A DNA stretch of 64,000 nt from Acorus gramineus (Eukaryota > Streptophyta > Magnoliopsida > Acorales > Acoraceae): NCBI GenBank assembly GCA_030737835.1, contig JAUJYN010000012.1:4398585-4462584 (forward strand), written 5' to 3'. Position numbers and translations under genes: made by a program. How positions within the stretch are numbered: the stretch's first letter is position 1; every line of letters starts with the position of its first letter. The notes beneath the pieces were generated by a model, which worked only from the letters and a program-made list of their open reading frames with translations, searched no databases and was not told where the DNA came from. Below are positions 1,578 to 53,400 of this stretch, in pieces.

Positions 1578-1646
1578 GTGTTCCACCAGAACTCTGTACC
1601 ATGTGACTCGATCTCTTGTCAGTGCTTAAACTGCCAGCATAATTGA
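1578..1646 (+). pseudogene. Cys-rich last exon relic E3, unit 1
   Basis: The acceptor TTTTTTTTAATAG precedes it. Aligned to 21371-21480 it keeps the cysteine spacing C-x4-C-x-C-x2-C-x-H (PCDSISCQCLNCQHN, stop) but is shorter at the C-terminus. The Cys frame is phase 0 here and phase 1 in units 2 and 3, a 2-base difference near the exon start. Either the upstream exon ends differently or this copy is dead; the window lacks its exon 1. Confidence 0.45.
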
Positions 1647-10312: not shown

Positions 10313-10353
10313 AATGAACTTATTGAAATGATGGAATGTTTCTTTTATTACAG

Positions 10354-10389
10354 GTCCAAAATCCCTTTCAAGAAATTATAGAACCATGA
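10354..10389 (+). pseudogene. Terminal-exon candidate E2a, partial copy
   Basis: Acceptor TTTCTTTTATTACAG. Phase 0 codes VQNPFQEIIEP then stop; the usual DPCN ending is lost. No exon 1 upstream. Confidence 0.35.
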
Positions 10390-10754
10390 TATCTGGTATC
10401 TAGAATGATAACGTTTCACAAAATATGATATAATTTTTTATTTTTTTTGATAGGTTGACCATACTTGTTGAGACTTCCTTTATAATTCTATGATTTTAAT
10501 TTGATCCTCATTACATTAAATCTATGCAAACAACTCGCAGATAGTCCATATACTTTCATAGACATTTAGCAAGGTATATACCTTATTAAGTGAGGTATAT
10601 ACTTTTTTTAACATTTGCTTAAAATATGTCCATTCAAGCCATTATCAACTATATTCATTTTTCATTAAAATATATATTTCATTAGATGAAATTTACTATT
10701 TTTAATAAACCAAAAGATATGCAGCTTATCAACGGAACATAATTCTTTTTTAAG

Positions 10755-10862
10755 TGGTGTCGTAGCTGGACCCTCCATAAATTGTAACAACATAGTTGTA
10801 CGTGCAACTGCGGTCATGGCCTAGACGTTCCCATAGAAGCTAGTGCAAATCTTCATAATTGA
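10755..10862 (+). pseudogene. Cys-rich last exon relic E3, partial copy
   Basis: Aligned with 37977-38089, the 3' half keeps C-T-C-N-C-G-H-G and the conserved ending E-A-S-A-N-L-H-N, stop. The 5' half has stops in the same frame, and a length change shifts the first cysteine out of register. It is a dead copy that still shows the family signature. Confidence 0.45.
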
Positions 10863-10999
10863 TGTCCTACATGTTTGGTGTAGACGTTGTAATATACATG
10901 AAAAACTGAGAGAATAAATATGCATCGAGCTCTATTTTTAGTTTCCAGAATATGTCTTTCAATGTTGTATGGTGTAAGGACTTCAATGAGCATATTAAT

Positions 11000-17592: not shown

Positions 17593-17899
17593 TGAAAGTA
17601 ATGCAAATGTGGGTAAGGCAGTGCTTGCTCCCATCCAGCCATGGAAGGCATGAGATTAAAGACTTTTGTTGTGCTGGTGCTTCTTTTGGCTGCTCAGTTT
17701 TATGGTTACACAGAGGAGGGCGGCCAAAGACGGGCTCTTATGAATTGGCAATCCCAGGTGAGAATGAAACATTGTCTTGCTTTCCCCTGGTTCCCCTCCA
17801 AATTTTAGATTTTGTTATTTGAAAATGATTCTGAAGTCTGGTTTGCAGCTATCCTTCACTGTTTTTTTTTTTAAATATAGACAATTGTCTATTGAAATA

Positions 17900-20030
17900 C
17901 ATATCATTTAAAAAAAAAAAAAAACTAAAATACTACTAATATATGCTTTTTGAAAAAAATTATAAAAAATAATTTTCAAAAATGGGTTTAGACAACGGAA
18001 TATTGGTAGAATTGTATGGACTTTATCTTTATCTTTAAAGATAAAGATCAGGAGGTGAGAATGAATCTTTATCTTCCTTTGCCTAGTTCCTCTCAAAATT
18101 GAAATTTTCTGTATTTGAGATTGTATCTCGTTTCTTATTTAATGTAATCTAATCAGCATATATACTTTTTTTAAAAAAATGTATAATTTGTCTAATAAGG
18201 TGTGCATGTTTGTAAAAAAATAAATAAATTATATGTTCCAATGAATTATGTGGACCCATTTATACAAAACTGTGAAAAATTCTAACAAGATATAACCTAG
18301 TTACAGTGAGTGCAGTTGTGCGTGCAAGTGATATGGGGTTGCAAAATTGGTTGAGTGTAACAATGTTCCTTTTTATCCTCTTTTTTTCGAGCACTATTAT
18401 ACTCCACGCATTTCACATTCTTCTTGCCCCCATATACTTCACTAGTCACATGCACTTAGTGTAACGATGTATATATCTTGTACGTTAGAAGTTTTTAACA
18501 TGCAATATAAATAAGTCCATAAAATTCATTAGTGTATACATATTTCATTTTTTTGAAAAAATAGCTTAGATGATGTATATTATTTTTCTTAAAAATAAAA
18601 AAATGATGAGAATTCCTTCTGGGGTTGAAACCGGGTTGAATATAACATTTTCCTTTTGTGTGATGAGGCTTCCCCTTTTTTTTTCCTTTTGCTCTTTTTG
18701 TTTTTTTTTTTTTTTTTTTTAGAAAGAGTCGCGCGCTTGGTCTCCTGATCGTACATTTGAATTGTGATTTTAAGAAACAAAGTCATATTGTATCTTAAGT
18801 TCTCAACTACTACTTAGTACATGATTATTAAAAGTTATAAGCTGGAGATTATAGTTTTTAGTTTAAGAAAAATAGTTGTTGTGTGTTTGTTTAAATTTAT
18901 TAAAACTTATTGAAGCTAAAAACAACTTAAAAAAATTAGAAATTCTAAGCTAGAAAAAGTGTGCTTTTCATATTATAACTTATGGATAGTTTTTTTTGGA
19001 TAATAATTCCCTTAAATTATTTTTCACTAATGTCCATACTATTGTAAAAAAAAATACTTTTTTGACACTAATGACCAAATATAATATAGTTGTACAATGT
19101 ATTATTTGTAAATTATTGTAGTGAATTTTAACTTTTATTATATTACATTAATTTTCCTTTTAAATATTCATCAAATTTATTTTAAGTAAAACCACCTTAT
19201 TTTATCAGAAATTATAAATTTAACTTCTACATTTGAGGGATATTTTTGATAATTAAACAGCAAAACACTGTTTTAAGCTTATTTTAACAAACATCCACTA
19301 CTATTTATTCTCTGCTTTTCAACAACTACAACAAACATGCCTACAGCTTATTAGATAAGTTAAAATCAATAATTTCTAACCTATAATCTATAATTTTTAA
19401 ATTAAAGCTGTAAGAAACATGACCTTAATTATCTTCCTTATTGTTTGGAAACAAGTTTGCAAAATAGTTTTCTATTTAAAAAATTCAAATTAGTTTTTTT
19501 AAAAAACATATGCTATATTTTTTAAAAGATTTATTTTAACTAAAAATTATTTTTCATTATGTGGGGGCGATTGGAAACGAATTTGGATTAATTGGATTTA
19601 TGTAAAAGCAGAATCCCAAAAAGTTGTTCAAATTAAAATAACTTCCAAAACGCAGCTGAACTTATTTAATAACATGAAAAAACATTGCCACTCAATATAT
19701 TAATCTCAAATAGAATCCCTCATCAATATGATATCCTGAAAACTAATTCAACTTGATTGCATTACAATTGGGCCCTCTTTATGGTCCCATTTCTCAATGA
19801 GCCAAAAAAGGATCGAAATTGTTAAAAAAAACTCAGTTACCAGAACCAGTTCGATCATTTTCAAATGAGGATTTAAAAAAATATGTAACTTATAAAATAT
19901 GCAAAATAGTAACTATAATTATTTTCCAATTGTGTGCTTTGTGTTAAATTTTAAACCAAACTTTGTGAGTTATCTATTTTGTTATTTTGAGGGATGTAAT
20001 GAGACAACTTGTAATTTTGTAGGGTACATT
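17900..20030. other. Unit 2 intron, first half
   Basis: AT-rich, no coding content seen. 19440-19830 aligns with 34870-35310 of unit 3 (TTGGAAACAAGTTTG; AAAAGCAGAATC; CTCAATGAGCCAAAAAAGGAT), which supports a shared intron. Arms near 18830 and 19390 may belong to a decayed MITE. Confidence 0.4.
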
Positions 20031-20896
20031 TGACTTGCTTGCATATGTGCCCACTACCATCCTATCCAACACTTTCTACTAGCATCCATCTCATTCATTC
20101 ACCAATACCCCCATCATTATCCATAACTTGGAAAACAACATTCACACCACTTTTCAAAGTCTCCTCCTACCTATGCATTGGAACTCACATTGATCATCAT
20201 TTTTCATATACTTCCGCTTCTTGCATTGGTACATGTATCACACATGCGTGTTGTTGCACCAACTTCCGAAGACCCATTCCCTATGCCACACAAGTTGTGT
20301 GCACCAACTTACCATAACACAGTCTCCATACCACACAAAAATGTTGTGGTCAGTCATTCCTATAGTCATTGTATCTAATGAATTATATACTTTCACAAAA
20401 AATAATAATAATGATAATAATAGTATTCAAAGAACAATGTTGCATACAACCCCTTTTAATATTTTATAGAAATATTATAACTCATTTAATAAGATACATG
20501 CTTTTATAAAAAAAAATGAAATATATACTCTAATAAATTGTATGTAAGCATTTATAGAAAATGTAGAAAATTCATATTAAAGTATACACCTCGTTAATTT
20601 GAGTATACATATGACTCTAAAGAAACATATGAGACTGGAATTAGAGTCAGAAAAGAGATTGTGCGTAATAATCATATTTAAATGAATTAAATATATATAT
20701 TTTTATATTTAAATATATATTTCACATAATGAATTAGAACAGCAAGAATGACATGGTATATCAGTTCCTCATTAGATCAAATAGATCACATGTTTCTCTG
20801 CTAACATGACAATAGAACTTTTGCGAATGAATGAAAGTAAGAAGGATGAAAATAATGAGCTTGTTGAAAGTGATGGAATGTTTTTTTATATTACCG

Positions 20897-20970
20897 GTTC
20901 AAAATTTCTTTACGGTAATCCCTTGACAGAAATAGAAATGGTAGATCCATGCAATAATCTAGAATTATAA
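20897..20970 (+). pseudogene. Terminal-exon candidate E2a, unit 2
   Basis: In phase 1 it is open and ends E-M-V-D-P-C-N-N-L-E-L, stop, like unit 1. The acceptor position reads ACCG instead of ACAG, so this copy may not be spliced. It lies within the exon 1 to Cys-exon intron. Confidence 0.35.
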
Positions 20971-21710
20971 AGTTTCTCAAAATTTGAGAGGAACTTTATT
21001 TTTGGATAGGTTCTTAGAAACTTGTTGATACTTCATTTATAGGTCTTGACTAATTCAGAACAATAACATTTTTTAAATAAATGTAGTTACTCATAGTCCG
21101 CAAGGACAATCCAACACCATATACCTCGATAGCCATCTATCGTGAGCTATCAATGTATATATTTCTTTAGGTTAGGTAAATATCTTTTTAACAATTTTTC
21201 ATGTTTTCAATTTAATGGATTCATCCAATACATCATCAAGATTAATACATCTTCATAAAAGCCTGCATATACCTCTTTAGAGATCGTTAATATTTTTTTA
21301 AAATAAAAAACATGTATAGACTATTCCCAAGACAATTCCTAGGATTGTTCCTAACAATTTTTTTTTATAGGTCCTCCATCAATACCGTCTGAACCATGTA
21401 CCCGAAGCTCTTGTCCATGCTCAGACTGCCATCATGGAGAAGGTGCTCCCGCAGAAGCTAGTGCAAATCTTCATCATTGATGTTCTACGTATTTGGTATA
21501 GATGTTGTAATAGACATGAGAAACAGATAGAATAATTGTGCATCCTGCTCTGTTTTTAGTGCCAAGAATAGATAACATTCAATGAAAGCTTATAAAATAA
21601 TGAATCTCTACTTGGGTCATGCAGAAGGACATGTTGTATGGTGTAAGAACTTTAATAGGCATATTATATATGTTTCATGATGAGTATGTATTACGAATAT
21701 AATGTTACAA

Positions 21711-22993
21711 GCTTTTCATGTAGTATTACCTATCAAACTCCCAGTCATTCAGTGTGCGTCTGGCAAGCTTTTCATGATAACTTCCTACCAGATCACGCCT
21801 TCTTCGAAAAGGGCTTCTTCGTGACTCCACATGCCTTCTTTGTCAAGCCAATGTTGAGGATGTAGACCATCTTTTTCTAAAATGTTCTTATTCTAGATTC
21901 ATTTGGTGTTCCCTCCTCAAAGCGATGAACATCAACACACCTCTTCCACGATTATTTTCAAATCTAGCTTGTTGGTTGGACATGGTTGCACTCACCTCCT
22001 TCTAAAAATCCATTCTACAGCTATCTCTCACCACCATTATTTGGAATATCTGGCTTGAACGAAATGCTTGTGTTTTAAAGAATCTACCTTGCCACAAGAA
22101 GATAGTCCTTCAAAGGATCAGGGTCTCTATGTCGATCAGGTTCTCCTCTATTAATCTCAAGTCTCCATCATCTCCAGAAGTTCTTCAGATGGCTTCTTTC
22201 TTTGGCTTCTCTGTTTTGGAACCCCAACAGACCCAGACTGACGTTCTTTGGTTGCCTCTCCTCCTTGTGAATGGACAAACTAAACTCTGATGAGTCATTA
22301 TCTGATGATAGGGGGGGCTATGGAGCTCTTCTTTGAAATGATCAAGCTGACTTTATTTGTGGTATATATGGCTGGTAGACATGATCTTCCCTCTATCAAT
22401 CTATTAGAGCTCAAGGCAACTGAGGTGGGACTATGGCTTGCCATCAAAACAGGGGTCCAAAAGTTGTGGATTGAATGGGATTCCACCACCGCAATAGCTT
22501 GGGTAAAAGGGAAGGGTTCGCGTCCTTGGACTGCAATCCGATCCCTCCGTTCTATTCAACAGGGTCTTCTTAGGTTAAAGGAATGGAAAGCATCACATGT
22601 CCTTTGTGAGGGGAACTCTCCTGCAGACCTGATTGCTTCGTTCCAATCTACAAGAGGAGAAACAATCCTCTACCCTTCCACCATTTAGTCTGAACTTCGA
22701 GCAGAGCAGCTGTTACACAAGACAAGACTGGTGTTCCCTATGTCCACAATAAAGGATGACACCCTTTTTTCTTCCTCCCCTGTGTCCTCAAAAGGCAGAT
22801 CTTTTTGTTTTGATCTTATTTCATATATGGATTACAGGAGATGTTTAATGATGGTGAAGGGATGCTGGTCGACCTGGCTTCGGCTTTCCCTCCTTCGTTA
22901 TCACTAAAGTTTTTCTTGTTGTCCCTTTTTGTGCTTTTTCATACTCTTTGTAAAGTTTTTTTCTCCATAGAAATACAAAAATTGATTACCAAT
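21711..22993 (+). mobile_element. 5'-truncated L1-type LINE with zf-RVT and RNase H
   Basis: The paralogous locus (1860) runs through this point without the insert. Codons around 21755-21900 give the zinc-binding reverse transcriptase domain (NFLPDHAFFEKGFFVTP). The frame at 22290-22688 gives the C-terminal RNase H of plant L1 elements: INLLELKATEVGLWLAIKTG, LWIEWDSTTAIAWVKG, and the ending LCEGNSPADLIAS. The 3' untranslated part ends near 22993 beside a (GT)n run. The reverse transcriptase core is missing and frames are interrupted, so this is a dead 3' fragment. About 900 bp of the original host sequence seems lost at the site. Confidence 0.8.
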
Positions 22994-29202: not shown

Positions 29203-29498
29203 TTGTAATCAATATGCATTATCTGAACAAATCATAAGTTGGTTTTGCAATTCTGTGCAATTCTATAGATTCAATTTAACCACAAAACTTCAATCTTTTC
29301 CACGTTACAAATTAAACAAAATTAATGTAAAATATGGAAATATAACAAATAGCAATACTTAAAAGTAAAATGTCGAAGATCCCAATCTTTTTTACTCATC
29401 AGTTGTCAATCTGTTTCCTTCTAAGACCTACAAAATAAAAAAAAGGGGCTCATAAATATGGTTCTATTCATTATTGTTTTTTTTTCTCTCAGTTTCCT

Positions 29499-30745
29499 TT
29501 CCTCAAAAAAGTGGGATTCCTCCCCTTTTTTTCCACTTATAACTTTCAATAACTATTACAATCAGCCTACCTATTAGTCAAATTTCTTGCCCTGTAACCA
29601 TTCTCATTCATTAGAAATCTATACCATCATTGTATACATTTATTTAGACGGTTTATATGCATTTATGGTGAACAAGACCAAAATCCAGGTTTATTACTAC
29701 ATGTGAATTGAATCTAAAAGATATGGCTATTTTTCAATTGGAAATATTTAGGAAGTCACTTCATCAACATGACTTACACATATATATCTAAAAGCAGTAA
29801 GTTCACAGTCAAACCTTTAAATGAAATGACAATGAGTTCACAGTCTTATCAACACACCTGAATGGATTTATTTTTTTCCTCAAAAAAGTGGAATTCCGTG
29901 AACTGAGCTTTGGTTAAGTCAGCAAACATCTCCGACCTCTATCAAAGAGGTCAAGGAATCAAATCATGAAAGCACCATTATTCAAAAAAAAGGAGTGGAA
30001 TTCCTCCCTTTTTTCACTTTTATTTTTCAATAATTGTTATAATCAGACTACCTTTTAGTCAAATTTCGCACCCTAGATCCATACACATTCATTTGAAATC
30101 TTACCATAATTATATACACTTATTTAGAAGGTTTATGTGCATTTAGACCAAAATAGAGGTTGAGTGCTACATGTGAATTGAATCTAAAAGATATGGCCAA
30201 TTTTCAACGCACGGAAATTGGAAATTTCGGGGAAGTCATTACGTCAACTTGACTTACACATATATATTCTAAAAGCAGCAAGTTCACAATCAGACCTTTA
30301 AATGAAATGACAATGAGTTCAAAGTCTTTTCAACACACATAAATGGATTTATTTCTTTCCTCAAAAAAGTGGAATTCCACCCTTTTTCACTTATAACTTT
30401 CAATAACTGTTACAAGCAGCCTACCTTTTAGTCAAATTTCTCGCCTTACAACCATACACATTCATTTGAAATCTAGATCATAATTGTGTACATTAATTTA
30501 GAAGCCTATGCGCATCATCTATATGGTGAATAAGACCAAAATCGAGGTTGATTACTACATGTGAATTGAATATAAAAGATATGGCTATTTTTCAATACAC
30601 GTGAGTTGAAAATTTTGGGGAAGTCATTTCATCAACATGACTTACACATGTATTCTAAAAACAGTAAATTCACAGTCAGACATTTAAATGAAATGATAAT
30701 GAGTTCACAATCCTTTCAACGCACTCGAATGGATTTATTTCTTTG
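29499..30745 (+). repeat. Tandem repeat, about 376 bp period, three copies
   Basis: Copies start at CCTCAAAAAAGTGGRATTCC near 29499, 29877 and 30359. The second spacing is longer only because of the 96-bp insert plus 11-bp target copy. Each unit contains TAGTCAAATTTC, TACTACATGTGAATTGAAT, GACTTACACATATAT and AAATGAAATGACAATGAGTTC. A partial fourth copy is at 30960-31030. No coding content. Confidence 0.85.
29898..29993 (+). mobile_element. 96-bp SINE-like insertion with perfect 11-bp target repeats
   Basis: Flanked by AGTGGAATTCC on both sides (29887-29897, 29994-30004) and absent from the neighbouring repeat copies. Inside are an A-box-like TGAGCTTTGGTTAAG, a B-box-like GGAATCAAATCAT about 45 bp later and an A-rich 3' end. 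It looks like a tRNA-derived SINE consisting of little more than the tRNA part. Confidence 0.65.
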
Positions 30746-31029
30746 TCAGTTGACAAATTTATTTCATATTTCATACATTTCATGTAGATCTAAATGTGAC
30801 TAACATATTTTTCTAATCAAATTTCACGGCAACTAATCACAAGAGCATCATTGTACTATTATTAAATATTACATGAGTATTTTTATCATCTATAGAAGAG
30901 AGATAATTCCACAAAAATGATTTTTAAGATAGCTATATACGGAAAAGAAAAAAATTCCTTAGGTGAAATGATAGTGAGTTCACAGTCATTTCAATGAACC
31001 TGAATGGATTTATTTCTTTGGCAGTTGAC

Positions 31030-33215
31030 CAATTCATCGCTACATGTTCCAATTAGGCATAAGCATAACAAATGCCATATATAGTACCAAAATAAAGTGC
31101 CATATATCGATGGGGTGTATTGGAAAAAAAAAGCGCATATATTGAACTATCATGGACAATTTCATAAAAGGCTTTTCTGCATGTATAATATTATTTAATT
31201 TTTATTAATGTAAGCATTGATAATTACTATGCCTCTACTAATAAATATTTTCTATATTGATTTTTTATATTTTTGGATTTTAGATGAATTTTATCATTTT
31301 TTATGTTAAAATTAATATTTTTATTTGTATAAATATTGTATTTGGTAATTGGGTCATTTCTCTAAAACTAATAATTTTATAGAAATTTGAATGAAAGTTG
31401 ACTAGGGTGGTATTTTTACATATTCCAATGGTATAAAAATAAATAGCATGCTTTTGGAGATAGTATACATGAAAAAAACACTTTGATGATACTTATTTTT
31501 TTGGAATATTTTATTTTATTTTTTAAAACCTTATTCATCTTTCCTTTTGGGTCTTTTAGTGTTGTTTGTTTCTATTTTATTGAAATTTGATGTTATTTAT
31601 TCTTTAATTTGCATATAATAACATCTTAGTAAATTATGTATATTCATTTAGTTTTTTAATTTGTTTGTTTTATTTTAATTTATTTATTTTATTTTTTATT
31701 TCATAACCTTTTTCATAGAAAGGGAAGATGTTTGCAGATTTAACGGAGGCTATTATATTGTTAAAGTGATTTGTGTAGAAGAATTAAAATTAAAATATTA
31801 AAATGTTCATGATAATAATCATAAAAAAAGAAAAAGAATTGTATGGATAGGGGTTCATTTTTGTAGGACCCACCTCTTCAGACTAATACAGTGTCGACCT
31901 TGATGTCACGTGAATATATATGCAGAATGCAGACTTAAAAGTAATGCAAGTAATGAAAAATGTGAAATTAAAGGTTTCTGTTGAACAAGAATGCGGCCGA
32001 AATAATAGAAGAGTTGCGATCAAGTAGGGGCAAAACATCGGGAGGGCCAAATTTTGAAAGTAGTTGAATGCATGCGAAATGGTTGAACTATCATGCAAGG
32101 AAAAACATTTTATTCTCTCTATTCAAATGACTAGGTCTGCAATTTGTCGGTTTGGATCAGTTTATTGTAAATCATAAATGAAACAAATCATCACACTAAC
32201 CCAATAACCAAATCAAGCCAAATATAACCGAATTGGTAAAACCATAAACCAAACTAAAATTGTTTGATCAACCTGGACAAAACTGAACGTAATAAAAAAT
32301 GTTTGTTGATGTAGATTAGGTTTTTTTTTTATATAGATATTAATGGCATAGGGCCTTACTGAGAATTTACTTTTTTTTGGAGGTCCTAGGCAAAATTTAA
32401 AAGAGACGTACACCCAATACATATTTACGAAAAAATTTAACTTTTGTTTAGCCTTACACATCATTTTATTTTAAGATACAATTATTACAAAAAGACGTTG
32501 TTACACTCAGTTTTTTTTACAACCCAAAATGCAATTTCATATGTGTTGTCCCACTCACAGTAATTAGGTATATACATCGTTAAAAAAAAATTTCATATAT
32601 TCTATAAATAATATATATTTCAATTTATTAGTGTATATACTTCACATTTTAAAAAATATATACCTCATTTGATGAAGAATCTGTTTTTTTTTTTAAATGT
32701 AAACATGGACGGACTATATTTGAAACTGTAAAAAAAGACTGTGTATAATATTTTCCATTACAAAATAGATACAAAATATTGTGTAGTCATTTAAATCAAA
32801 ACCTTCTATATTATCATATCCAGCCACCTAATAAATAATGTATGGATTTTCAATTAAATTAATTTTTAAATCAACAAAGAGAGCTGACTCAACCTAATTA
32901 AAGCCTAAAAGCAACAAAAAAAATTGAATATTTTAATGGAAGAAGAAAATTATTTAAATCAGAAAAAATAATTTTAAAAGTGGGCTTGAGAGGAAGACAT
33001 TGCCATAATGTTTTGAGAGATAGGGGATAAATTTTATACTTGATTTGGAAAATATTAAACTTTGAGAGTGAGAAAGTGTTTAAGAGAAACTAATTCACAT
33101 TTTTAATTGAGGAAAATGACACATTCTATTATAAAGTTAGTCCTTGGGGGACTTCCATGGTGGAGGTCCTAGACCATTATCTTGGTGGAGCCTTTCCTCA
33201 AAGCTGGATTGCAAC
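31030..33215. other. Gene-free AT-rich sequence with hAT MITE half
   Basis: 32133-32310 resembles one arm of the GGTTCGG hAT MITE (11579). 32340-32410 resembles 2860-2920 and 23075-23125, and 32580-32690 resembles 2740-2840, so pieces of the duplicated locus continue here. Nothing coding is supported. Confidence 0.4.
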
Positions 33216-33395
33216 GGTTAACCAATTCATTGCATTTGGTATTGAAATCGACCTGTGTTGAAAAAAAGCCATGGTTGTGAATATGTATTAATGGTTGATG
33301 TTAAAATATGGATTGACCCAGTCTTGTATGGACAAAGAAATTGATTTGTTCGAAGAAAAGTGAACATTATTGATGGTTGATGTTGATGTAATCTC

Positions 33396-33404
<9 letters not shown>

Positions 33405-33428
<24 letters not shown>
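33405..33428 (+). promoter_or_regulatory. TATA region of the unit 3 peptide gene
   Basis: An (AT)n run ends in ATATATATAAAAGG, a good TATA sequence about 60 bp before the ATG at 33485. The run is expanded compared with the AATATATATACTT at the same place in unit 2 (17583). Confidence 0.5.
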
Positions 33429-33484: not shown

Positions 33485-36400
33485 ATGGAAGGCATGAAAT
33501 TAAAACCATTTGTTGTGCTGGTGGTTCTCATGACTGCTCAGTTTTATGGTTACTCAGTGGAGGGCCGCTCACTAGGAAAACCAGGTGAGGATGAATCTTT
33601 ATCTTGCTTTGGGCCTAGTTACTATGAAAATTGAGATTTTCTATTTAAGATTGTATCTTATTTTTTGCTTAGTGTAATCCATTAGAATAATTATTCTTTT
33701 AATTATAATTCATCAAATAAGGTGTATATTTTTTAAACAAAAAAATGAAATATATACTCTAATGAATTGTATAGACTCACATAAATGTGTAAAGAAATTT
33801 CTAACCATATATATATTTTTTATTATAAGAGCACATGTGGCTAACGAGGTTTGTTGGACTGTAAAGCTCTTTTATATCTTTTTCTTTTCAATCACTGTTA
33901 CACCTAGCCCAATTTGATTTGCACTCACTATATCAAGGTATATCTCGCTATAACTTTTTTTTACTAATGGTATAAATGAGTTCATAAAATTCATTAGAGT
34001 GTATACATTTCATCTTTTATAAAAATATATCTCTATATCTATTACTTATTTCTTGAAGGAAAATTGACCCAAATTTTATTTTCGTTTTTACCCTCCTATG
34101 TTTAGCAATTACTCATGACTATTAATCCAAAATTTAAAACTTTCAAATTCATATCATTGTTTTCAAATTTTAATAATTCAGAACTAAAGATATTCACTAA
34201 ATCTTTCTCAATTGAATTCAATAAATCTATTACATATTTATTAAAAAGAAATATATTAAATGGAATGAGCATTGGATGGTTCAATAATCAATAAACACTC
34301 GTTTATATTTTATCATTCATATGAATATTATAATTACATATTATATATTTAGGTATACGTGCATTTGAGGAGTGCATAAAACTACTACAATTTTTAGAAA
34401 AATTAAAAAACTATTTTTGTTGTTGAAAGAGTCGCTGGCTCCCATTGACAAACGAGATGGACAGGGCAAAAGTGCACACGAGGTTAGGTGCACGGGCTCT
34501 GTCTTCTTGACAAAGTGAAGGTGTGCTCAAACCTTCAAGAAACAAAGTCTTAAATGTATCTTATAGCTATGTTACCTTTAGTCTTCTTTACTATCTTAAA
34601 AATAATATCATATAACTCGTTAGCATTTTTCATTTATTATAACGAGATATATATCTCATTAAAAAAAATTTATATTTTTTATAAATGATATCATTCAATT
34701 TTTTAAGATATATACTTCATCTTTTATAAAAGTACTACCTCACATATGATGTTAACAAAAAAAATGAAAACATATACGGACTGCATTTGCATTATATAAT
34801 AGATTGAGTTTAACATTTTCCTATATTTTAAGTTCTTAACTCTTGACTGTACTACCATCGAATAATCTTCGGCATTGTTTGGAAACAAGTTTGAAAAGCA
34901 GTTTTTATTTAAAAGAATTTTTTTAAAATAGTTTTTGAGAAAACATATATATTTTTGTTATATTTCTGAAATGATTTTTTATAACTAAAAATTATTTTTC
35001 GTGTTCTTCAAAAGTTTAGATCATTGGAGCATTTGAAAACCGAATTGGTTTAATTTTGATTAATTTAAAAGCAGAATCTCTAGAAACTATCCAAAATAGT
35101 TTCTAAATGCAACCTTAGAACTTATGTAATCACATGGGTAAACACAGTCACTACATATATTTATCAGGAATACGTTGTCTTATATGTATTATCACTAATA
35201 TCACATAGAACGCCTGATCAATAAGATCATGGAAACTGGTTCAACTTGGTTACATCATAACAAGACCCTCGTTAATTACAGTCCCATTTCTCAATGAGTC
35301 AAAAAAGGATTGAAATTGTTCAACAATTCAGTTGCTAAAACCAGTATGATCAAGTTTCAATGAGATTTTCTTAGACAAATATAATTTAAAAAATGTTAAA
35401 AAAATGCATCTATAGTTTTTTTTTTTTTTTCCAAGTGTGTCAGTGTGTGCATTGGAATGAAAATTGTTACAATCAACCATTCATACAGTCTTTTTCGTTG
35501 TCCGAACATCATTTTGCATTTTATATTAAAGTATATATATTTAATAAAGTACATATAAATTAAAATACATGCTTGAATGAATGAATTAGAACTACAATTA
35601 ATATAATAAGATTGACTTGGTGTAACAGTTTCCCAATGGAATAAATCATATGTTTCCCTAGTAACATGACATTAGTCACAATCCACCACATCATCTATGA
35701 CATTATACTTTTATAAAATGAAGAAAGTAATGATTAAAAAGATGAGTCTGTTGAACATGATGAAATGTTTCTTTTAATTACAAGTCCAAAATCCCTTTAA
35801 AGAAACGGTGGATCCATGCAATCCAGAATTATGAAGTTTTACAAAATTTGATGGAATTTTTTTTTGATATAATTGTTGATAACTTTATTTATTCTATATC
35901 TATAAATGTATTATTTTAGTTTGAGCGCCCTGTTACACGTAGTCCCCGCACAAACAACCCCACAGACAATCCATATACTTCCTTGAATGATGTATATAAG
36001 TTTTTTTTTAACATTTGTTAAAAATAAGTCGATTCAATTCGTTATTATGGATCGATATGATACTTGCTGATACTTTATTTATTCTATATGTATAGTTGTT
36101 TGAGTTTAGTCTGAGCCTATTACACACAATGTTTTAAAAACTGAACCACGAAATGAACTGGAAAAATCATCTGATCAATGGTCACTGATTTAACTATTGA
36201 GTTAACTGGATTTGAATGGTGACATAATTATAATATATAATAAATATATTAATAATCAACACTAAATTTAAAAAATTAAATATTTTTTGAAAAACTTTGT
36301 ACAAAATTTTATTTAACATCATAACATGATTTTAGTATATAAAAACTAAACTTTTTATTAGATTTTATATTTGATCAAATAACTAATAATAATTTCAATG

Positions 36401-38089
36401 AATAAATATTCGATTGGTTTAATCAACGCGTGCTGGTTCACAAAAGCCGTCGGTTCAACAAGTGGGTTGATTTGGTTTTATCGGTTTTTATATCATTGTT
36501 TTTAAAAGTAAATTGAACCGGAATTCAAAGTGGGTGAAGGTTTAGCCACAGGTTCAACCGGCCGGGTCGGGTTTTAAAACACTGGTTACATGTAGTCCGC
36601 GCAAAGAGACCCGTAGACAATCTATATACCTCCTTGAGAGATATACTTTTTTTTTAACATTTGCTAAAAATAAGTTCATTCAATTTATTATGGAACTATA
36701 TACATTTATCATCAAAGCATATATTTCATTATATGGGATTTACTGTTTTTAATAAATTCAAACGCGTAGTTTATCCACAATTTCTCAATGGAGGTATCAC
36801 AATTATATATCACATTTATCCACAATTATATGGGCTTGGTGTAACAGTTTCTCAATGGAATATATCACATGTTTCCCTAGTAACATGACATTAGTCACAA
36901 TCCACCGCATCATCTAAGACTATACTTTTCTAAAATGAAGAAAGTAATGATTAAAAAGATGAGTTTGTTGAAAATGATGGAATGTTTCTTTTAATTACAG
37001 GTCCAAAATCCCTTTAAAGAAATGGTGGATCCATGCAATCTAGAATAATAAGGTTTTACAAAATTTGATGGAATTTTTTTTTATATACTTGTTGATAACT
37101 TTATTTATTCTGTATTTATAATTGTATGATTTTAGTTTGAGCCCTGTTACACGTAGTGCGCATGAACAACCCCCCAGACAATCCATATACTTCCTTAGAT
37201 GAGGTATATACTTATTTTCAAAATTTGTTAAAAATAAGTCAAAATCAATTAGTTATGAATCGATATAATACATGTTGATACTTTATTTATTCTATATTTA
37301 TAGTTATATGAGTTTAGTTTCGGCCATGTTACATACAATGTTTTGAAAAATCATCTTGTCAAGGGTCATTGGTTCAACCATCGGGTTAACTGGATTTGAA
37401 CCGTGACATAATTATAATATAATAAATATACTAATTATCAACACTAAATTAAAAAAAATGAAATATTTTTTGAAAAACTTTGCATAAAATTTTTATTTAG
37501 CATCATAACATAATTTTAGTGTATAAAAACTAAACTTTTTATTAAATTTCATATTTTATCAAATAACTAATAATAATTTCTATGAATAAATATTCAATTG
37601 GTTTAATCAATCCGTGCTGGTTCACAAAAGCCATGGGTTCAATAGGTGGGTTGATTGGGTTTTACCAGTTTTTATATAATTGGATTTTAAAGGTAAATCG
37701 AACTGGAATTCAAAGCGGGTGAAGGTTTAACCAGTTCAACCAGCCAGGTCTGGTCGGGTTTTAAAACACTGGTTACACGGGGAAAAATCTATACACCTCC
37801 TTAGATGAGGTGTATACTTTTTTTAACATTTATTAAAAATAAGTCTATATAATTTATTATGTAAATATACATTTATAATCAAAAACATATATTTCATTAT
37901 ATGGGATTTACCGTTTTTAATAGATTCAATCATGTGTAGTTTATCTTGCTTTATCCCTAACATAATTCTTTTTTAGGAGGCGACTCACAACACAACTCCC
38001 AAAATTGTACACCAAAGTGTTGTCCGTGCCCACATCGCTCTATTGGCGAAGACGCTCCCGAAGAAGCTAGTGCAAAACTTCATAATTGA
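33485..38089 (+). CDS. Small secreted Cys-rich peptide gene, unit 3 (two-exon model)
   Basis: Exon 1 is 33485-33584: MEGMKLKPF, hydrophobic core VVLVVLMTAQFYGY, then SVEGRSLGKP; its donor CCAG/GTGAGG leaves phase 1. The last exon 37977-38089 follows TTCTTTTTTAG and continues in the same phase with GDSQHNSQNCTPKCCPCPH and an acidic tail ending EEASAKLHN, stop. The product is 70 residues: a signal peptide probably cut near Y23-E26, then a mature peptide of about 45 residues with four cysteines (C-x3-C-C-x-C). The first Met is chosen because it is conserved with unit 2; Met4 is also possible. The size and layout fit a secreted signalling or defence peptide, but I recognise no family and infer no function. 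The intron is 4.4 kb, swollen by duplication and MITEs. Alternative last exons lie at 35785 and 37001. Transcription is not shown. Confidence 0.5.
35785..35834 (+). other. Terminal-exon candidate E2a, unit 3 first copy
   Basis: With acceptor ACAAG it continues the phase of exon 1 (33584) and codes VQNPFKETVDPCNPEL, stop. Joined to exon 1 this would give a 49-residue secreted product with a single cysteine, an alternative to the Cys-rich tail. The usual ACAG acceptor is changed to ACAAG in this copy. Confidence 0.4.
36127..36584. mobile_element. hAT-type MITE, TGTTTTAAAA ends, copy 1
   Basis: Ends CAATGTTTTAAAAAC and inverted CAGTGTTTTAAAACC, with GGTTCAACCGG arms. It interrupts the sequence CTGTTACACGTAG (intact near 37147); flanks ATTACACA / GTTACATG are a decayed 8-bp duplication. 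Confidence 0.65.
37001..37048 (+). other. Terminal-exon candidate E2a, unit 3 second copy
   Basis: A strong acceptor (TGTTTCTTTTAATTACAG) precedes it. In phase 0 it codes VQNPFKEMVDPCNLE, stop. In the phase left by exon 1 of unit 3 it stops after five residues, so it would only serve with a phase 0 donor. Confidence 0.35.
37336..37771. mobile_element. hAT-type MITE, TGTTTTAAAA ends, copy 2
   Basis: The duplicated version of the element at 36127, flanked by GTTACATA / GTTACACG. Confidence 0.65.
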
Positions 38090-38151
38090 TGACCTACATG
38101 AAAAATTGAGAGAAAAATGTACATCCAACTCTATTTTTAGTTTCCATAATA

Positions 38152-39130
38152 TATATCTTTTACTTACTTATTAAAAGGTTTCTGATCCAGTATTTTCATT
38201 CCCCTTTATATCTTTTAAACAACTGATTAATTATTAATTTATCTATTAATTTAAATTTTAAAATTTTAAAATATATAATAGATAACTACATGATAGATAT
38301 ATCTTTTACTTACTTATTAAAAGGTTTCTGATCCAGTATTTTCATTCCCCTTTATATCTTTTAAACAATTGATTATTACTAATGTATCTATTAATTTAAA
38401 TTTAAAAATATAAAATGGATAACTAAATGATAGATATATCTATTACTTATTAAAAGGATTCTGATATAGTATTTTTATTTCCCTTTATATTAATTTAATC
38501 AATTGATTAATTACTAATGTATCTATTAATTTAAATTTTAAAATTTTAAAATATATATATTACTTACTTATTAAAAAGATTCTGATGCAGTATTTTCATT
38601 TCCCTTTATATCCTTTAAACAATTGGTTAATTACTAATGTATCTATTAATTTAAATTTAAAATTTTAAAATATATAATGGATAACTACATGATAGATATA
38701 TCTATTAATTACTTATTAAATGGATTCTTATCTAGTATTTTCATTTCCCTTTATATCCTTTAAACAATTGATTAATTACTAATGTATCTATTAATTTAAA
38801 TTTTAAAATATATAATGGATAACTACACTATAGATATATCTATTACTTACTTATTAAAATGATTCTGATGCAGCATTTTCATTTCCCTTTATATCCTTTA
38901 AACAATTGATTAACTACTAATGTATCTATTAATTTAAATTTAAAATTTTAAAATATATAATGGATAACTACATGATAGATATACATGGATTATAATTATT
39001 TTTAATTTCCCTTTATATCCTTTAAACAGTTGATTAATTACTAATATATCTATTAACTTAAATTTTAAAATTTTAAAATGTATTATGGATAACTACATGA
39101 TAGATATACATGGATTATAAGTATTTAAAA
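38152..39130 (+). repeat. AT-rich satellite, 120-147 bp units
   Basis: About seven copies are marked by ACTTATTAAAAGGATTCTGA (near 38165, 38311, 38445, 38565, 38710, 38848), each followed by TTCATTTCCCTTTATATC and CTATTAATTTAAATTTTAAA. The last copies lack the first part. The array continues at 42430-42720 beyond the inserted LTR. Confidence 0.85.
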
Positions 39131-42316: not shown

Positions 42317-42845
42317 TTATTCATTGATACAATCTAATCTCATAAGATTATTATGATATGTTAGGATATGAAAATATAGGTTTGACTGAGTTTGATTTAA
42401 GATAAACTTATTTATTTTTAAGATTAATTTTCTATTACTTACTTATTAAAAGGATTCTGATCCAGTATTTTCATTTCCCTTTATATCTTTTAAACAATTG
42501 ATTAATTACTAATGTATCTATTAATTTAAATTTTAAAATTTTAAAATATATAATGGATAACTACATGACAGATATACATGGATTATAAGTATTTTCATTT
42601 TCCTTTATATCCTTTAAATAGTTCATTAATTACTAATATATCTATTAATTTAAATTTTAAAATTTTAAAATGTATTATGGATAACTACATGATAGATATA
42701 CATGGATTATAAGTATTTAAAATTATTCATTGATACAATCTAATCTAACAATCTAATAAGATTATTATGAGATGTTAGCATATGAAAATATAGGTTTGAC
42801 TGAGTTTGATTTAAGATAAACTTATTTATTTTTTAATATTAAATT
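42317..42845 (+). repeat. Satellite continuation with repeated flank
   Basis: TTATTCATTGATACAATCTAATCT...AAACTTATTTATTTTT occurs at 42317-42425 and again at 42724-42840, enclosing two more satellite units (42433, 42590). Confidence 0.8.
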
Positions 42846-50463: not shown

Positions 50464-53400
50464 ATTGTCCCTCATCGGACGGAGTCTTTTGTGCGAAGCA
50501 GAAAGACTTCAACCGATGATAAGAAAAGAGACCCCTATTTTGGCCAGCCCGACCTTCAAGAAGCTTAGGACACATGACCAATACCATTCAGGGATTTGAT
50601 TTAGGTCATCAGAGGCTGGGTTTTGACTAGAATAGTCATCTAAAGACTGATCCAGGTGGGAGAGTGAGTAAAAGTAAGGAAGCGAGTGATCCAACCCTCG
50701 GACGGGGTTCTTAGCCATCGTGCACGGAGCAGCCCGACGTCAGTTTCCTTGTGCCTACCGTACCCGTGCTTGGGTAACTCAGCAAATCAAGGGGATATTG
50801 TAGATAGAAAGTAAAATAAAGTGTGTTTGATTTGGTGAATTGGATCATTCGAAAGACAAAGATTCTGGAAAAGAACTAGAACTGAAGAAATTTGAACTGA
50901 ATGGTACTGGTAATTGTGGTAAAACTTAAAAAAGTTGTGTTTGATCAAGTAAGACTTGGAAATAAACCAATACATGGCTGTTTGTTTTTAGAAAGCTTGG
51001 AAATAAGTGTGTTTGAGAAGCTAGCAGGGGGCGGCTAGTGGTGATTAGCCGGCAGGGAGGGGCGGCTAGTTGGATTTAGCCGCCGGGCAGGGGGCGGTTA
51101 CTCACGAGTAGCCGCCGGTTGACTGGGTCCCTTATAACCGAAAAAGACCCTCTCTCTCCCGTACGTTTTCAAAATGGTTCCTCTCCCTCCAATACTTCTT
51201 CTTCTCCGTTTGAAACCGAAAAACCTTGATTTCCTTGGCTTTAATTCGCCCTTAATCATCTCTTTCTTCTTGATTTCGAAACCCTAAAAATCTTTTGGGT
51301 TCTCCTTTTTCTTGTGAAATCGGGAGAGATGACGAAGGGGAAGAGGACGGCTTCGATGATGAAGTGCCTCAGGCCTTCCCGAGAGCAGAGTGGGGCTATC
51401 TCGGGGTCGGGCTTGTCGGAGAGCGATGGGTCGGAAAGGAGGGTCGCGGAGGAGACGACCCAAATGGTGGAGATGCCTTTGACTGGTGCTGGTGGAGGTG
51501 CGGGCGCATCCTCAGGCGCTGTCCCGGGGGTAGGGGGTAGTGTGATTGGTTATACACGCAAGAGGAGGTGTGCCGACCGATCGGCGGTGGCCGAAGGCAC
51601 GAGTTTGGAGGCCAGAGGATCTGTCAAGGGTGTAGGTGGGGAAGTAGGGGCTAAGGGGGTTAGTGAGGAGGTGCAAGCATCATTAGATGCTATCGTGGGG
51701 CTGCTGGATAGGGTGGCCATAGAGGCCAGGGCTGAAGAGGAGGAGAGAAGGGCTATGGGTGTTTTTGAGGTGTTGGCCTCTGGTGTGGTGGGCACGGAGG
51801 AAGGTGAGGGAGTTGGGGTTGGGGCCGAAGAGGCCGTGGGTGTGGACATAGGGGCTACGGGGGCCTGGGCTGAGTTTGAGGCCGAGGAGGCCATGGCTGA
51901 GGAGGAGGGGGATGATGAGGACGAGGGAGACGACGACGGGATGGGCGATCCTGACGAGGCCGAGGCGGAAGCTTCCAGAGCCACACGAGCCATGGTATTC
52001 CCCTAATTCCCTTGTATATTATGATATATGTATATATATGTTTTGGTGGTATGCATGAAATGTGTAAGAAGTATGTATATGTGTCCTTTTAATAGGCATG
52101 CTTGTTGTGTATATGGGAGAAAAAAATGATCACGGTGGGATTTTATAAGCATGATTTATATTTTCCGAGTGTAAAATGATGTAAGCATTGGGTTTAGAAA
52201 GGATCGGTCTTACATGGGGGGTTATGGTGGGGTTTACATGTATTTCATGAGTCTAAGAAGTAATCATGGTAGGTTTATATGTGGCGTGTACTTTTAAGGG
52301 AGGGACAACCTCTTTTGTATGCTTAGGTGAGTTTATGAAAGGTGTATAAGCATGATAGATAATAAAAGAAAGTATGCAAGTAATAACCAGTGGGGTAAGA
52401 GGGTAAAATATGTGATCACATAGAAAAGCTTCGCAATAAAGGAGGGTGAATTTCCTTCTAAGGTTTTATTTTTCATGCTTTTGTTTGATTTGGTATGTGG
52501 GAATTCCTAATAAGCATGGTTTAGAATGAATTTGGTTTAGAATCCTTACCTCTTGAATACTATCCCAAGAGACTAACCCCTTTTTCCCTTTCTTTTGTTA
52601 TCAGCGGTCGAACCGTATTCGGGCCCTCTGGAATGGGACGAAGAGGTGGTATGATGCCCTAAGGCCGGAGGAGAGGAACCTAGTGAACGAAGCGGGCTTT
52701 CGCTCCTTCTTTCCTATCGAGCCGTTCCATGCCCATCGTCCTTATCTGGAGGCATTGACAGAGAGATGGGATCCGGAGAGCTGCGCCTTCATCCTCCCTA
52801 CTGGTGCAGTGATGCCGACGCTTGAGGATGTGGAGCGGATCACGGGCCTCCCAGCCTTGGGCGAGGCGGTGATAGCGGCCACTAGTCCTGACTACAAGGC
52901 GCTCTTCCGAGAGTTGATTGGCGACTGGGAGTACGTGGAGCAGGAGAAGACATTGAACCGGATCCCTCTTGGATAGCTTTCGAGGCAGTACAGCCTAGGT
53001 TCGTTCACGCACAGTGAGAAGGGTAAGGCCGCGACCAGTTTTGATAGGAGGAGGCTGATGATCGAGGCTAGGGAGGCCGCTGCATGCCCACAGAGGGCAC
53101 GGAGGGAGTTGAGGGCATTCTTCCTCTATTTCTTCGGCCGGGTCCTCTTCTCGACGGCCTCTGACAAGGTCTCCTCCCACTTCTTGTTGTTGATGGGGGA
53201 CTTGGCGACAATGGGCCGCTTTGCTTGGGGAGCTACGATGCTTGCCCACCTTTTCGTGGAGTTGTCAAAGAAGGTGAAAAGGGTTGGGGGCAAGAATCTC
53301 AACGGCTTCGCGGCTTTTCTGCAGGTATAGTTAGTGAAAATAGATATGATTTGATCTCTGTTTATTCTCTTCACCTGACTTTGGTTTTGGTTTTCCTTCT

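Follow-up and report, generated by a model that had tools for sequence, protein, structure and literature searches.

We present here a candidate family of short, secreted, cysteine-rich peptides in Acorus gramineus, repeated along a single contig (JAUJYN010000012.1, hereafter C32) of a 398.6-Mb assembly. It was identified in a 64,000-nt stretch (C32:4398585-4462584, hereafter the window), where one intact gene, U4 (33485-38089), stands beside broken copies, and it extends over a cluster of ~ 320 kb. The sequences make it very probable that these units form a two-exon secreted-peptide gene family. On balance, and with some reserve, we favour the wider reading of a young, lineage-specific tandem family of secreted cysteine-rich peptides that would act as diversifying receptor ligands. 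From the comparison of the copies, we read the export signal and the cysteine core as constrained and the mature part as diversifying, the strongest single piece of evidence being the tail of exon 1 in U4.

Gene structure and extent of the family

The gene model of U4 comprises the following features, in window coordinates:

33400..33427, forward strand: TA-rich stretch, possibly a TATA box, ~ 60-85 nt 5' of the U4 ATG
33485..33584, forward strand: exon 1, with the putative signal peptide MEGMKLKPFVVLVVLMTAQFYGYSVEG and the first mature residues, ending in phase 1
33585..37976, forward strand: intron of 4392 nt, GTGAGG...TTTTTTAG, with a CTAAC branch-point-like motif at 37957
37977..38089, forward strand: exon 2, with the mature part, four cysteines and the tail GEDAPEEASAKLHN-stop

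Splicing 33584^37977 joins a phase-1 donor (CAG/GTGAGG) in phase to a T-rich acceptor and yields 70 residues up to the stop at 38089. The uninterrupted 70-residue reading proposed in an initial annotation of the window thus holds, and this unit is the only intact one of the four in the window. The similarity claimed between exon 1 of U4 and the copy at 17641 was also borne out: 20/27 residues and 71/81 nt of the signal peptide are identical, as are 127/164 nt of the 5' flank (33236-33400), and both copies have the AG/GTGAG donor. In the copy at 17641, the place of the TA-rich stretch of U4 is taken by a shorter TATATATA. Exon 2 recurs, as annotated, at 1578, 10755, 21371 and 37977, with the ending EASA(N/K)LH in the last three; this stretch was removed from the copy at 1578 by a 39-nt deletion. 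The other units of the window consist of:

1578..1646, forward strand: exon 2 of U2, with 2-nt and 39-nt deletions; the corresponding exon 1 falls outside, 2.6 kb ahead of the window (C32:4396001)
10755..10862, forward strand: frameshifted exon-2 remnant Ux, for which exon 1 was looked for and none found
17641..17757, forward strand: exon 1 of U3, with a phase-0 donor, out of phase with its own exon 2
21371..21480, forward strand: exon 2 of U3, open reading ...CTRSSCPCSDCHHGEGAPAEASANLHH-stop, with a phase-1 acceptor

Chance occurrence of the gene signals was evaluated with shuffled sequences, for two patterns that were defined after the sites had already been seen. An open hydrophobic N-terminus followed by an AGGTRAG donor was found for four ATGs at only two loci, those of the two exon-1 copies, on both strands of the window (mean of 0.1 in 40 order-1 Markov shuffles). 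The succession of CTAAC, T-tract and AG occurs four times in the window against 0.37 expected (four or more in 0/100 shuffles), three of the four being exon-2 acceptors.

At the genome scale, a search with exon 1 gave at least 14 matches, on the same contig as the window. Exon-2 copies in the cluster number at least 15, of which 14 lie in the stretches fetched and one more (4359885) was recovered by a whole-genome protein search; among the matches listed by this search (the best 10), none lies outside the cluster. Stretches of the cluster lay outside the sequence examined (4348501-4375899, 4385801-4395099, two 10-kb N runs and two short gaps), and the unit counts are therefore lower bounds. 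These counts do not include four weak exon-2-like matches (E 0.03-0.39; 4110463, 4288283, 4311071 and 4311171), nor signal-peptide fragments at 4142833, 4145795, 4380158 and 4383118. Eight intact two-exon genes were recognised on C32:

U0, 4114183
U1p, 4139543
U2p, 4158440
U4p, 4194385
U5, 4238361
U6, 4259488
U1, 4376839
U4, 4432069

Their products measure 70-75 residues, with identical proteins for U1 and U1p, and their introns (1962-8214 nt) are all in phase 1 with a matching acceptor. Phase-1 donors were found in 9 of the 11 full-length exon-1 copies (exceptions U3 and U3p) despite five length classes (100, 112, 118, 139 and 145 nt), indicating that the frame of exon 1 was preserved through changes of length. 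The peptides share a common layout, with a putative signal peptide, a variable part, the motif C-x4-C-x-C-x2-C and an ending close to APAEASANLHN-stop. In all eight genes, a hydrophobic core behind a basic N-terminus reads as signal-peptide-like, and the mature part counts 43-48 residues with four or six cysteines. Net charges of the mature parts range from -3 to +2 and are thus not strongly cationic. The tail runs 14 residues to the stop and invariably ends in N (HN in six genes, RN in two). The cysteine motif is present in 7/8 intact genes; U4 deviates from the rest of the cluster, its fourth cysteine being lost and another one gained.

Divergence between the copies

The ratio of nonsynonymous to synonymous differences per site (pN/pS) was pooled over 27 pairs, omitting the near-identical U1/U1p; column bootstraps were run on the full set of 28 pairs. 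It amounted to 0.40 for the signal peptide (bootstrap 0.19-0.88), 0.57 for the cysteine core (0.28-0.93) and 1.21 for the variable part. In seven of the nine pairs examined, which are not independent of each other, the mature part is less similar than the adjacent non-coding DNA (P<0.05), and in the U2 and U3 pairs it is more divergent than the near flanks (P 2.5e-4 and 0.009).

The closest comparison is offered by positions 1-37729 of the window, collinear with C32:4161108-4198649 at an offset of 237 kb and 97-98% identity, a repeat that may reflect either a duplication of recent date or the presence of the second haplotype. Elsewhere, 4476649-4480122 matches 4221695-4225165 at 99.4%, immediately before a 10-kb N run, so that a haplotype placed twice is possible. 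Between U4 and U4p, the signal peptide is identical at 81/81 positions and the start of the intron at 195/200, against 12/19 for the mature part of exon 1, and this 19-nt stretch is the sole place with at least 7 mismatches per 19 nt in the 36.9 kb of the aligned pair. Over their mature parts, the two genes differ by 22 nonsynonymous changes (~ 100 sites) and one synonymous change (~ 29 sites). Transversions exceed transitions in three of six pairs and equal them in one, with 0-5 transitions in CpG context per pair; deamination may, in general, have contributed to the exon changes.

The units of the window have a single orientation and an A-B-A-B pairing (657-1869 with 20454-21711, and 10575-10953 with 37790-38152). 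The initial annotation had suggested a fast birth-and-death family from conserved cysteines in degraded surroundings. Such degradation was not observed: in most cases, the similarity of introns and 3' untranslated regions (3'UTRs) between units equals or exceeds that of exon 2. In pairs of U2, U3 and U4, identity within exon 2 is 0.81-0.88 for the tail against 0.64-0.68 for the cysteine core, and the 3'UTR (0.75-0.88) stands at about the level of the tail. The argument from the surroundings thus fails in the window, but a tandem birth-and-death family is still supported, because eight intact genes occur beside broken copies, the signal peptide and cysteine core are constrained, the mature part evolves fast and one copy is recombined.

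Several results weigh against a family of diversifying ligands. Over the whole mature part, the pooled pN/pS is 1.00 (0.75-1.30), a value equally expected without selection, and with 1.49 (0.84-3.46) for the tail, selection holding this conserved-looking segment is not demonstrated. The copies of the window alone give ratios of nonsynonymous to synonymous substitution rates (dN/dS) of 0.65 for exon 1 and of 0.74 and 1.07 for exon 2, with no third-position excess, and coding function is thus not demonstrable from them alone. An excess of divergence in the mature part is missing from two of the nine pairs (U1-U1p, P=0.3; U4p-U6, P=0.85). Taken by themselves, the U2 and U3 pairs lost weight as evidence of accelerated exons, their exon-2 divergence being unexceptional, with 17 and 22 other equal-window clusters in the aligned block. 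Between U4p and U6, the surroundings of exon 2 agree at 98-99% and those of exon 1 at 86-91%, with disagreeing trees for the two ends; U4p having its exon 2 in common with U6, recombination contributes to the exon-2 half of the difference between U4 and U4p. Finally, AlphaFold returned no fold for exon 2 from two sequences (mean predicted local distance difference test score of 55), and the receptor partner is purely what we infer.

If the products are nonetheless diversifying ligands, the peptide would be exported to the apoplast, where its cysteine cluster would close a small disulfide loop. This loop and the free C-terminal tail would be bound by a partner, for which a plant receptor kinase is the likeliest candidate and a foreign protein the other, and changes of this partner would drive the diversification of the mature part. 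The sequences themselves show a mature part that changes faster than the signal peptide and copies that are gained, broken and recombined, U4 being a variant with a shifted cysteine.

Other features of the cluster and searches for a known family

A further element was detected upstream of exon 2:

35764..37060, forward strand: acceptor-like block within the U4 intron, in two copies (from 35764 and from 36981), reading (V)QNPFKE(T/M)VDPCN(P/L)E(L)-stop

This acceptor-like block (QNPF..(V/I)DPC.LEL-stop) occurs at 15 places in the cluster, preceding exon 2 from U1 onwards, with many degraded copies, and none was found in U0. Its sites in the window are 1085-1157, 10335-10430, 20877-20970, 35764-35843 and 36981-37060. 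Its phase matches that of exon 1 in U2 and U2p, and the block is a possible alternative terminal exon.

Further repeats were noted in the window. The donor region of U3 has a second copy ~ 297 bp further downstream (17756-17822 and 18053-18118). Upstream of U4, at 29494-31037, a unit of roughly 370-480 bp is repeated in tandem three to four times, and a minisatellite with units of ~ 120-145 bp starts directly after the U4 3'UTR (38136-39126) and reappears 3.5 kb further on (42411-42845). Mobile-element remains were found at 22284-22685 and 52557-52973, with matches to RVT_3 (E 9.1e-10) and to the plant mobile domain (E 3e-11). The two halves of the cluster are separated by open reading frames at C32:4274584-4275129 and 4287626-4288837 (reverse strand), which we take to be S-adenosylhomocysteine hydrolase-like and heat-shock factor-like.

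In agreement with the initial annotation, no known family was recognised. The U4 protein matched no Pfam family at E<=10, and seven family members gave a single weak match (DUF3797, E=0.037). Sequence and profile searches of the PDB returned two matches with E about 1, confined to the hydrophobic stretch, Rfam gave no match in the window, and fragments of the peptide sequences had no match in paper text. The exact DNA pattern of the tail was absent from the viral and prokaryotic contigs searched. Judged against Pfam, PDB sequences, Rfam and paper text, the family is provisionally considered new.

Its general kind is already known, and we provisionally regard the U4 family as an added member of the tandem, fast-evolving secreted cysteine-rich peptides. 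Membership of the defensin-like (DEFL) peptides was rejected for want of a defensin-type profile match in Pfam, and the four cysteines fall here within 11 residues whereas the defensin-type framework is longer. Clusters of cysteine-rich peptides (CRP) and DEFL genes of the AtLURE1 type otherwise resemble the family in their signal peptide (putative here), short mature part, mostly even number of cysteines and tandem arrays, with species-specific expansion and loss-of-function copies (PMC3525529, PMC5731061). Positively selected sites are commoner in the mature part of Arabidopsis defensin-like genes (PMC5731061), and AtLURE1 is reported without positive selection (PMC3525529).

Peptide hormones whose active peptide lies at the C-terminus, such as CLE (PMC7552357) and IDA/IDL (PMC4627355), are also comparable in their precursors of less than 120 residues, signal peptide, variable middle and repeated C-terminal motif, with HN at the stop, and receptor kinases bind the terminal Asn of peptide hormones (PMC6749341). 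The family differs in its tail, which carries neither the CLE motif nor the Pro and Ser conserved in IDA, and in the cysteine cluster preceding it. CLE membership was rejected, the pattern R/H-x-V-P-x-G-P-N/D-P being found in 0/8 tails by eye against the examples of PMC7552357, and IDA/IDL membership was rejected on the Pro and Ser positions of the PIP motif. In the IDA/IDL comparison, DAPEEASAKLHN and PIPPSAPSKRHN are identical at 5/12 positions, a score reached by 0.001 of residue shuffles, with four and three positions for the U2 and U3 tails (0.010 and 0.075 of shuffles).

A third, possible parallel is provided by CTNIP/SCREW, the ligands of HSL3, whose small secreted precursors require C-terminal cysteines for function (PMC9191895). 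The spacing of 9 between the first and fourth cysteines in 7/8 intact genes falls within the 9-11 filter of that study, with four conserved cysteines here against two there.

Alternative readings and implications

Defence peptides, either antimicrobial or directed against herbivores, would be shaped by an arms race with no dedicated plant receptor. We regard this reading as less likely yet credible: the genes stand in a tandem array with broken copies, their mature part changes fast beside a constrained signal peptide, and in Arabidopsis defensin-like genes, too, positively selected sites are commoner in the mature part (PMC5731061). The mature parts are nevertheless short, weakly charged (-3 to +2) and mostly limited to four cysteines, and no antimicrobial family of Pfam was matched.

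It is unlikely that the family consists mainly or wholly of pseudogenes or of rarely expressed genes evolving by duplication and neutral drift, even though a mature pN/pS of about 1.0, three broken units out of four in the window, and introns and 3'UTRs conserved to the level of exon 2 would be consistent with such decay. Eight intact frames, frame-keeping length changes of exon 1, pN/pS below 1 in the signal peptide and cysteine core, and 7 mismatches per 19 nt restricted to the coding part right behind an unchanged signal peptide argue against it.

Metal binding, with the cysteine cluster holding copper(I) or zinc in the apoplast instead of closing a disulfide loop, appears improbable. The motif of the family agrees in spacing with four of five cysteines in the copper boxes (CXCX4CXCX2CX2H) of yeast Mac1, a nuclear transcription factor of fungi, in 7/8 genes, and a His lies within one residue after the cluster in U0, U1/U1p, U2p, U3 and U5. 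A Mac1-type box was nevertheless rejected, the first cysteine being absent and the His misplaced or absent; the CX4CXCX2C spacing is the only likeness between unrelated proteins and could be due to chance, U4 has no fourth cysteine, and U4p and U6 have no His. The apoplast is, moreover, oxidising.

An origin of the repeated exons from a transposon or from non-coding RNA is highly improbable: despite the abundant mobile-element remains of the window (RVT_3, plant mobile domain), neither a transposon nor a structured RNA was retained as an explanation of the exon similarity, given no Rfam match in the window, copies restricted among the matches listed to one cluster, a single orientation, a synteny of the units that takes in promoter, intron and 3' flank, and protein-like constraint on the signal peptide and cysteine core.

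Returning to diversifying receptor ligands, a bolder version, to which we grant little weight, would see in these peptides a new bipartite class of plant ligands, combining a cysteine-clustered loop, possibly metal-binding, with a hormone-like free C-terminus (...NLHN). Two pieces of the mature part would be hypervariable beside a near-unchanged signal peptide and introns, and some units would perhaps switch to the QNPF..VDPC.LEL-stop exon. If the copies 237 kb apart were the two haplotypes of one plant, their hypervariable alleles would point to a function in recognition or incompatibility.

Short, intron-split and fast-evolving secreted peptides are easily overlooked in gene annotation. The cluster is a candidate for lineage-specific defence or recognition, and its eight intact genes, which differ in their mature parts while promoters, signal peptides and introns are near-identical, form a good natural series on the causes of diversification in plant peptide ligands.

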